Assembly (NCBI RefSeq): GCF_029240215.1
Contig: NZ_JARBTK010000007.1
Span: 1-64,000 of the forward strand
Length of the DNA: 64,000 bases
Origin: Chryseobacterium sp.
GTDB taxonomy: Bacteria; Bacteroidota; Bacteroidia; Flavobacteriales; Weeksellaceae
Reading direction: 5' to 3'
Of the stretch, positions 34,752 through 58,112 are shown piece after piece. The notes under the pieces are model-generated. The model searched no databases. It was given only the letters and a program-made list of their open reading frames with translations, and was not told the DNA's origin. A program made the position numbers and the translations under genes. Positions within the stretch are counted from its first letter, which is position 1. Each line of letters starts with the position of its first letter.

Positions 34752-35065
34752 GCTTTTAACAAAATCGTTTTTGTTCTGAAAAGTGTGGTTTTGGTTGATT
34801 AGTGATCTGTTTTGGTCTCACACTGGGAATTTTACCTTCCGAACCGAAAATTTCTGCTTCAGGATAAACTTGTTTAGGTATTGTATCGAATTTTTTTGGT
34901 TTTGAACGATATTCTTTCGGTCTTTTACTCTATCGTTTCGGTTGTTTAGAGGTTGGTTTCGGTTATTAACCGAAAAATATACGTTATGAACCAGAAACTT
35001 TAGGTATTGAACCGAATCGTTTATGTTTAGAACCGAATCTTATTATTAAATAACCGTATTGTATA
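34751..35065. repeat. Degenerate 21-bp tandem array, 15 units
   Basis: Fifteen contiguous units of exactly 21 bases start at 34751 and every 21 bases to 35045 with no indel. The consensus begins GGTTTTGAACCGAATCGTTT. The middle word GAACCGAA and the T-rich unit end (GTTT) are best kept; units at 34982, 35003 and 35024 contain GAACCAGAA, GAACCGAATC and GAACCGAATC. No frame is open through it because TAA and TAG occur. The array starts in the T-run of the nfu terminator and ends before the terminator of the facing gene. It is related in wording and period to the array at 1506-1757. Confidence 0.85.
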
Positions 35066-35120
35066 AATGAAAACCACAGGCTAAACCTTGACAAGGTTGA
35101 CTGCACAAGATTTACTTAAA

Positions 35121-39247: not shown

Positions 39248-39316
39248 ATAGTTTAAAATTATCTTATCCAGATTTAAGGACTGTAAGACTTCTTGTGAAT
39301 TGGAAACGATCATTTT

Positions 39317-39412
39317 TAGCCCCGATTGAAGTGGCATCCTTTTTTGCAGTTTTCTGAGCGTAGCCGATGGAAACTGCAAAAAAGATATAACGGAAAGCGG
39401 GATTAAGCTTCT
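39317..39412. repeat. AGCCCCGATTGAAGTGG element with a perfect central hairpin
   Basis: The element starts AGCCCCGATTGAAGTGGCA and ends GGAAAGCGGGATTAAGCTT. Its centre is TTTTTTGCAGTTT ... AAACTGCAAAAAA, a perfect 13-base stem. The outer words (CCCG and CGGG) can also pair. I believe similar elements are scattered through flavobacterial intergenic regions, but this is from memory. It may be a structured RNA, an attenuator or a mobile repeat. It is 60 bases from the ppx stop codon on the opposite side. Confidence 0.65.
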
Positions 39413-56264: not shown

Positions 56265-57191
56265 ATGAAAGTAACTGTAGTAGGTGCAGGCGCTGTAGGA
56301 GCAAGTTGTGCAGAATACATCGCAATGAAAGACTTCTGTTCGGAAGTAGTTTTAGTAGATATCAAAGAAGGTTTTGCTGAAGGAAAAGCAATGGACTTGA
56401 TGCAGACTGCATCTCTGAACGGATTTGATACAAAAATTACCGGAACAACAGGAGATTACAGCAAAACAGCAGGTTCTCATGTAGCAGTAATCACTTCCGG
56501 AATTCCAAGAAAACCGGGAATGACAAGAGAAGAATTGATCGGTATCAACGCAGGAATCGTAAAAGAAGTTACTGAAAATTTAGTAAAAAATTCTCCTGAA
56601 GTCATTATCATTGTGGTTTCCAACCCAATGGATACGATGGCTTATCTGGTACACAAAACTTCAGGTCTTCCTAAGCACAAGATCATCGGAATGGGTGGTG
56701 CTTTAGACTCTGCAAGATTCAAATACAGATTGGCAGAAGCTTTGGAAGCTCCAATCTCTGACGTAGACGGAATGGTAATCGCTGCTCACAGTGATACTGG
56801 AATGCTACCTCTATTAAGCAAAGCAACAAGAAACGGAGTTCCTGTAACTGAGTTCCTTGATGATGCAAAACAAAAATATGTAATCGAAGAAACTAAAGTT
56901 GGTGGAGCTACATTGACTAAATTGTTGGGTACTTCAGCTTGGTATGCTCCGGGTGCGGCAGTTTCTGTAATGGTTCAGGCAATTGCTTGTGATCAAAAGA
57001 AAATGATCCCTTGTTCATTAATGCTAGACGGAGAATATGGCGAAAGCGATATCTGCTTGGGTGTTCCTGCAATCATCGGGAAAAACGGTGTTGAAAGCAT
57101 TGTCAACATATCTTTAACTGAAGAAGAGAAAGCTAAATTTGCTGAAGCTGCACAAGCAGTAAGAGAAGTAAATGGTGATTTGAAGTTTTAA
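56265..57191 (+). CDS. mdh: Malate dehydrogenase
   Basis: Oxidises malate to oxaloacetate with NAD in the TCA cycle. The 308-aa enzyme belongs to the LDH-like MDH group: GAGAVGASCAEYIA (NAD), VITSGIPRKPGMTREELIGIN with substrate-binding Arg, IVVSNPMDTMAYL, GMGGALDSARFKYRLAEAL, and the catalytic His in GMVIAAHSDTGMLPL (written AHSDT where most enzymes read GHGDT). Codon use indicates strong expression. It and sucD are the two TCA enzymes of the window. A long stem terminator follows. Confidence 0.96.
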   Translation: MKVTVVGAGAVGASCAEYIAMKDFCSEVVLVDIKEGFAEGKAMDLMQTASLNGFDTKITGTTGDYSKTAGSHVAVITSGIPRKPGMTREELIGINAGIVKEVTENLVKNSPEVIIIVVSNPMDTMAYLVHKTSGLPKHKIIGMGGALDSARFKYRLAEALEAPISDVDGMVIAAHSDTGMLPLLSKATRNGVPVTEFLDDAKQKYVIEETKVGGATLTKLLGTSAWYAPGAAVSVMVQAIACDQKKMIPCSLMLDGEYGESDICLGVPAIIGKNGVESIVNISLTEEEKAKFAEAAQAVREVNGDLKF

Positions 57192-57210: not shown

Positions 57211-57250
57211 AAATACGAAGCCTGAAATTTATTTCAGGCTTCGTATTTGA
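57211..57250 (+). terminator. Terminator of mdh
   Basis: AATACGAAGCCTGAA and its exact inverse TTCAGGCTTCGTATT enclose atttat, followed by TGATTTT. Confidence 0.88.
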
Positions 57251-57252
57251 TT

Positions 57253-57580
57253 TTGAATAAATAATTTACGACAGTTTTACAAATCTTTATAACCTCTTTT
57301 ATAACTACCAACAGGGGGTTAGGTAAGGGGGGTAAAGCCCCTTTGGAAGTGGCTGTGACCGGTTGTTCAAGTGTTTATTGGCTGTTGTGAAGTGTCTACA
57401 GATATTTATCTAACGGGTTGGAGACACTTTCTCAAGTTGTCGGAGGCAGTTATACCAATGGTCGGAAGTAGTTTTTAAGTGCCTTGACATACTTATATAA
57501 CCTCATCTATACACTTTTGTAAATGATTACAGATGGTCGGAGAAGGGGCAAATGGATCTACATCAATAGGGTCGGGCTAA
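57253..57580. repeat. Degenerate 22-bp tandem array, 15 units
   Basis: From 57253 the sequence can be cut into 15 units, 13 of exactly 22 bases and two of 21 (starting 57363 and 57450). Nearly all have T at position 1 or 2 and AA at positions 7-8, and the pattern is roughly TTnTntAAgtgnnTnnagac. The best adjacent units are TTGTTCAAGTGTTTATTGGC and GTTGTGAAGTGTCTACAGAT. GC content is higher than the surroundings and small palindromes occur (GTCGGGCTaaAGCCCGAC at its right edge). No open frame runs through it. The mdh terminator precedes it and a family-2 half-repeat follows. Confidence 0.7.
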
Positions 57581-57658
57581 AGCCCGACTACAATTAAAGG
57601 TTTCAAATCTGGCTTCAACCAAATTTATTTTAAAAAATAGATCAACTCTTTAAGATTA

Positions 57659-57695
57659 GAAAAATTCTCGATACGCTTCGCTACTCGAACTGACG
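57659..57695. repeat. Dispersed repeat, family 2, half-copy
   Basis: ATTCTCGATACGCTTCGCTA followed by CTCGAACTGACGG matches the right half of the copies at 39131 and 62393; the left half is missing. Confidence 0.7.
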
Positions 57696-57722: not shown

Positions 57723-58112
57723 TTACTTTACAACGGTCGCTTCCATTTCGACTTTCAAGGTTTCGAATAGTGTTTTTACTTCTATGACCGTACTTGCCTG
57801 CTGAATACCGTGTTGGGTAATCCAGTTTTGCCAGAGGTCAAAGTTTTCGAAAAATGCAGGATGATCTGTCGTGTAAACATTAAGACGAACAATATTTTTC
57901 AGTTCAAAATCTGCCTTTAAGATTACTTTTTCCAGATTTTCAAAGGTCTTGATGATTTGTGTTCTCATATCTGCATCGTTTGAGATCCCATTATCATCGA
58001 TAGCAGTCTGTCCGGAAACATACAGTGTGCTCTGTACGTTTTTTACTTCTACTGCCTGTACGTAATTTCTTGTGTCCTGCCATTTCCACGGGTTGATGAT
58101 TCTTTTTTCCAT
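57723..58112 (-). CDS. RidA family protein, catalytic Arg apparently absent
   Basis: This 129-aa protein has the YjgF/RidA fold: TLYVSGQTAIDDNGI, IKTFENLEKVILKADFELKNIVRLNVYTTDHPAFF, and the terminal VKVEMEATVVK. RidA deaminates reactive enamines using an Arg in the motif ARxxVxV near the C-terminus. Here the equivalent segment reads QASTVIEVKTL, with Ser in place of that Arg. Relatives lacking the Arg usually do not have the deaminase activity, so the role may be different. It is 77 bases downstream of the Crp/Fnr gene on the same strand. Confidence 0.9.
   Translation of the reverse strand: MEKRIINPWKWQDTRNYVQAVEVKNVQSTLYVSGQTAIDDNGISNDADMRTQIIKTFENLEKVILKADFELKNIVRLNVYTTDHPAFFENFDLWQNWITQHGIQQASTVIEVKTLFETLKVEMEATVVK

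Follow-up and report, generated by a model that had tools for sequence, protein, structure and literature searches.

A 22-bp array of dyad-symmetric units behind mdh in Chryseobacterium, and its relation to arrays linked to a small gene family in Bacteroidia

The spacer behind mdh in a Chryseobacterium sp. genome raises the question of whether a regularity of about two helical turns is a real feature of the DNA and, if so, what kind of element it could be. We consider it here within a stretch of 64,000 nucleotides (contig NZ_JARBTK010000007.1, positions 1–64,000), called the window below.

The array behind mdh and other arrays of the source genome

An earlier note on this DNA described, at 57253–57580, a 22-bp period with a recurrent AA step, and both parts of this description stand. 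Matches at lag 22 amount to 0.415, compared to 0.263 in dinucleotide shuffles (z 6.0, reached in 0 of 2000 shuffles), and lag 44 has a z of 4.5. The AA is phase-locked in 14 of the 15 units, while the maximum in 1000 shuffles is 8, with a free offset and up to two 21-base units allowed for array and shuffles alike. The pattern is therefore not noise, and it does not depend on which two units are taken as 21-mers. An unsupervised period-22 fit returns nearly identical units. The array runs from ca 57259 to 57586 and has some 15 units, of 22 bp except for a few of 20–23 bp; its word family is called A here. Its units have diverged too far for Tandem Repeats Finder to detect it.

The earlier reading of the unit was correct for AA but overlooked TT at positions 17–18 (13 and 11 of the 15 units), T8 (10/15) and A11 (11/15). 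With these bases alongside AA the unit is dyad-symmetric, and its consensus can be written AAg-nnn-cT-nn-Ag-nnn-cTT-nnnn. This consensus equals its reverse complement about two dyad axes, one mid-unit and one at the centre of the 4-nt spacer.

The two neighbouring genes, considered only as context, are mdh on the left (56265–57191, forward strand, Ldh_1_N and Ldh_1_C) and a RidA/L-PSP family gene on the right (57723–58112, reverse strand, Ribonuc_L-PSP). Just left of the array is the mdh terminator hairpin, with a perfect 18-bp stem (57211–57248, inverted repeat I1), and the array starts about 10 nt past it. At the right end there is a dispersed short palindrome of REP-like type, GTCGGGCTAAAGCCCGAC / TCGGGCTAAAGCCCGA (57570–57599), which recurs across the genus genomes and is outside the 22-bp pattern itself. 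A second REP-like palindrome, CTCGATACGCTTCGCTACTCGAACTGACG, is located at 57665–57695 and occurs again at C3:57124 and C2:187025 of the source genome. The site between mdh and ridA carries an array in the source genome and in G011, while G031 has both genes and no array. A unit-by-unit alignment of the source-genome array with that of G011 gives no homology signal.

The window contains two further arrays, as the earlier note had it, at ca 34760–35070 and ca 1496–1790, both with a period of 21 bp. The three differ in wording and share the period: the former of these two has word C (TTTcGGTt..aACCGAA) and the latter word E (GGTATTCC), families separate from A. The suggestion that such arrays form a genome-wide class is also borne out. 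When the intergenic stretches of the window and 800 kb of the source genome (279 stretches, 0.86 Mb) are ranked by the best autocorrelation of each, lag 21/22 accounts for five of the seven highest values, three of these five coming from the window; the lag-33 signals in this ranking are coding. When the sample was extended to 1.25 Mb of genome stretches, some of them picked after matches had been seen, 15 signals reached z ≥ 5, and 10 of these have lag 21/22.

Family A is found in the source genome at the mdh-flanking array and at C1:442k, word B (TGAGGT..ACCTCA) at C1:639k, C2:187k, C10:59k and C10:74k, word D at C1:634.7k, and words C and E at 34.8k and 1.5k of the window. Yet another word family is seen at C1:585k, a lag-22 array of palindromes CTCATGCGCATGAG (L329:5076–5275). 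A pattern search with word B through 150 genus genomes gives the source genome and one other only, and weakly. As a separate observation, a Flavo-1 small RNA (RF01705, 75.9 bits) is present at 39314–39408 of the window.

Family A in other genomes and arrays behind a small gene

A two-unit pattern of family A, with 20 fixed bases and at most two mismatches, has matches in 41 of 150 genus genomes and almost none in controls. Among named genomes, the true family A arrays are those of Chryseobacterium. Matches in Pseudomonadales MAG contigs (L152, L154, L155) were rejected, being ordinary homogeneous tandem repeats of 22–23 bp, AAGACGCTGAAGGCTCTTTATTT, unrelated to the array class. A profile made from sequence only, using 35 stretches of which none is from the source genome, matches 66 of the 150 genus genomes and a sister genus; in 295 genomes spread over the class it matches the source genome alone. 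In 0.87 Mb of the source genome it finds only C1:442k (E 7e-11) and the mdh-flanking array (57303–57386, E 9e-7; 57388–57437, E 2e-6; profile R1), both scoring below the arrays of other genomes.

The proposed tie to terminators or convergent genes finds no support in family A, whose contexts are tandem in 31 cases, convergent in 5, divergent in 3 and undetermined in 2. Unit order is common to arrays at different sites in 35 pairs with z > 5 and in no shuffles, some of the pairs being orthologues and the genomes compared being related, so that cluster counts are approximate; many family A arrays have therefore been copied from one another. We also observe defence-like genes repeatedly just past family A arrays (L121, L124, L126, L135, L136, L157, L191, L218), among them McrB-like and DUF262-like genes and an OLD/UvrD-like pair, most of these named by eye, and PDDEXK_4 by Pfam.

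Several arrays are preceded by a small gene without a Pfam match. Its product, the EQNKL protein, has 160–170 aa (alignment A3), and its YG, EQNKL-like, EF..D, DNY and QFF motifs are invariant. Pfam, NCBIfam, PHROGs and PDB sequences offer no credible match to it, and the protein is absent from plasmids (72,556), phages and viral contigs. The single-sequence model is all-helical, with a low confidence (pLDDT 47) at which no DNA-binding fold can be claimed, and a fold search with it gives no significant match. There is no neighbour gene, NTPase and Rep included, that recurs across the EQNKL families; XRE-type HTH genes adjoin the gene in 17 of 59 loci, mostly in one genus-level cluster. Tandem pairs of EQNKL genes, or EQNKL with a related-looking gene, are seen at L249/L276 (G558) and L269 (G367).

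In 60 genus genomes, a 21/22-bp array is found downstream of the EQNKL homologue at 26 of 30 loci, where an array means z > 4.5 at lags 21/22/42–44, or a family A score > 16, in the 700 bases behind the gene. At two of the four negative loci, a family A array follows at a greater distance downstream. A profile search across Bacteroidia gives 26 further loci (L249–L274), 20 of them with a downstream array (z > 5 at the same lags) and only one, L250 of G527, with an upstream array (21 bp, z 8.9). The control, downstream of mdh, gives 0/26 at z > 5. The gene-linked arrays start a median of 15 nt past the stop codon, are 155–655 bp long, and have a significantly dyad-symmetric consensus in 24 of 36 cases. 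At the 20 positive class-wide loci, the period is constant at 21–22 bp and the words are unrelated between lineages.

Within the genus, the array word goes with the gene subtype: MALDNL genes are followed by 22-bp family A arrays and MGLTNL genes by 21-bp arrays of other words. In the 60 genomes, family A is present in all 15 with the MALDNL subtype and in two of the 12 with only other subtypes (the source genome and G011), a co-occurrence that is partly automatic, through the linked array itself. The relation is not strict, since family A arrays are also present in ten genomes that lack the MALDNL subtype. The source-genome homologue (C10:59157–59645) carries a word B array, and this word is found again at C1:639k, C2:187k and C10:74k. 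Word C likewise occurs behind the EQNKL gene of G057 (L231). The gene-linked array of G046 differs in word from the arrays dispersed over 0.8 Mb of that genome. No EQNKL gene is found within the 64-kb window, and candidate relics near its arrays were rejected as weak short matches (E ≥ 0.1). The mdh-flanking array is an orphan, with a word family common to the MALDNL-linked arrays.

Constraint on the units and rival explanations

We now turn to what is kept in the units. In 381 units from 31 non-redundant arrays the consensus is again dyad-symmetric, with an A/T frame of A1 (.92), A2 (.96), T8 (.87), A11 (.83), T17 (.94) and T18 (.92); the positions between are G/C-rich yet variable. Among seven orthologous arrays, with the register read from a single sequence, the pairwise difference amounts to 0.062 for the six frame positions, 0.20 for the free core positions, 0.27 for the spacers and 0.146 for the flanks, so that the spacers diverge about four times as fast as the frame. 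Among related arrays, all 30 pairs compared also have a frame slower than the remaining core; there the frame served to choose units in both sequences, for which reason the seven-orthologue comparison is the fairer one. The description of the units as strongly decayed may suit the mdh-flanking copy, where decay may be ongoing, but it does not apply to the class, whose frame is constrained.

Each unit consists of 18 bp and a linker of 3–4 bp. Across 17 arrays with no relation to one another, 3-nt spacers form 2 adjacent pairs where 8.8 are expected (p 0.0009), and this anti-clustering means that the helical register is kept. The phase also wanders less than it does in shuffled arrays (p 0.0004), and units recur on average every 21.77 bp, or two turns of 10.9; these register statistics come from an array finder that carries a fixed penalty per 21-bp step.

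These results bear directly on the option of old minisatellites, in which slippage would have created 21–22-bp duplications that decay without function, the period reflecting the duplication mechanism only. Neighbouring units are indeed slightly more alike in direct orientation (4.5 vs a background of 3.9 of 10 positions), and there is little variation among the units of certain gene-linked arrays (L271, match 0.87). Neutral decay would, however, be equal at all positions, contrary to the difference between frame and spacers. The kept register also speaks against it, as does a period of 21–22 bp that 20 of 26 loci share although their words are unrelated. We consider this origin unlikely, while giving it some weight.

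Another option is phased DNA of a general kind, bent or bendable, that abundant nucleoid proteins such as HU would read with no dedicated partner. Arrays with word B, C or D agree with it, since their predicted curvature is raised (z ca 3–4 with one or both of two wedge models) and their A/T periodicity is near 10.35–10.55 bp. Family A, on the other hand, is not raised in either model, the mdh-flanking array having z values of −0.44 and 0.55 against shuffles, and still it keeps specific AA, T..A and TT bases. Curvature as a property common to the arrays was accordingly rejected, as it holds for words B–D and fails for family A. A link to one gene family would also be unexpected, and we regard this option as quite unlikely.

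If the gene-linked arrays were 3'UTR or small-RNA structures, the window array could be a displaced copy of such an RNA element. The start of these arrays close behind the stop codon would fit, the strands of the mdh-flanking array fold better than shuffles (the folded stretches include the terminator hairpin), and there is a weak covariation across spacers in the 381 units (z 2.6). Between the left and right halves of these units there is, however, no covariation (z −0.16), the RNAalifold covariation term for the orthologue alignment is about zero, inverted similarity within arrays is at the background level, within-unit pairing in the mdh-flanking array is not above chance, and there is no Rfam match. 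In addition, the terminator stands between mdh and the window array. An RNA or single-stranded DNA hairpin was therefore rejected, and the symmetry belongs to double-stranded DNA; the broader RNA reading we hold to be improbable.

The arrays could, alternatively, mark hot spots of recombination or insertion that serve in the exchange of cargo, e.g. defence genes. Several sites have the order conserved gene, array, variable genes; in G148 a segment of gene and array is duplicated 23 kb away with 96% identity; and paralogous arrays have a common unit order. At the mdh–ridA site, however, the two neighbours are the same genes with the array (L091, L092) and without it (L096), and we find this explanation very improbable. 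It is hardly credible that the arrays conceal coding sequence for a repeat of seven residues (21 bp being 7 codons): long open frames exist inside some 21-bp arrays, but none runs through 29 of 32 gene-linked arrays, every fit needed indels, and a 22-bp unit cannot stay in frame, because 22 is not a multiple of 3. A phage or plasmid element was rejected as well, as there are no matches.

A possible gene-array system and its relation to known elements

The two-turn period, the symmetric sites, the register, the variable half-sites and the gene together point to a cooperative dimer lattice. On balance, we put it at about an even call that the array behind mdh is a dispersed copy of a double-stranded DNA class of this kind. 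The units would be dyad-symmetric sites lined up along one helix face, at a fixed two-turn period of 21–22 bp, and a dimeric protein would fill them cooperatively to give a nucleoprotein lattice. The EQNKL product would be the first candidate for the binder, and a partner, e.g. from the HTH neighbours, the second. One can speculate that the lattice serves in silencing, in chromosome anchoring or partition, or as a boundary beside sites of gene exchange.

Slightly more tentatively, we suggest a gene-array system of Bacteroidia in which the two-turn period is invariant, protein and word co-evolve, and gene-less arrays have been seeded as sites acting in trans. Partition centromeres with an adjacent binder gene, such as ParR-parC and TubR-tubC, and plasmid iterons are the closest in layout, with sites at whole helical turns beside a small protein gene, and cooperative filling of one face is also the mode suggested for the arrays. 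Unlike these systems, the arrays are chromosomal, lack plasmid or phage matches and a recurring NTPase or Rep neighbour, have many gene-less copies, and change their word at fixed period, and the EQNKL protein is without database relatives.

The arrays resemble minisatellites and VNTRs in their tandem units of ca 21 bp and the homogeneity of some arrays, but differ in the frame constraint, the fixed period with changing word and the link to one gene family. With periodic A/T clusters and phased curved DNA they share A/T periodicity near the helical repeat, whereas the two-turn period, the base-specific dyad symmetry and the predicted lack of curvature in family A set them apart. CRISPR arrays are similarly regular, but here there are no identical repeats with unique spacers, only 22-bp units with linkers of 3–4 nt. 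REPs are described in one account as 20–40-bp palindromic repeats (PMC3733652). Like REP/BIME elements, which go with RAYT transposases, the arrays are built of palindromic units dispersed in intergenic DNA, which in REP/BIME sometimes stand in rows; in the arrays, however, the unit halves neither pair nor co-vary, there is no stem, and 18-bp units with short linkers are kept in helical register.

We found nothing on such arrays in the open-access literature, and from this lack of a match the class, gene-linked, constant in period and changing in word, is apparently undescribed. It would account for numerous intergenic spacers that look "degenerate" and escape the usual repeat finders, and the gene link would open the system to direct test by binding, ChIP and deletion. 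If the proposal is right, an entire class of bacteria possesses a system of phased DNA that comes with a protein family of its own, as yet unannotated, and in which the period is kept while the sequence turns over, as in eukaryotic satellites. Co-evolution of gene and array, if true, would make this a bacterial counterpart of satellite or centromere-like DNA, constant in spacing and changing in sequence.
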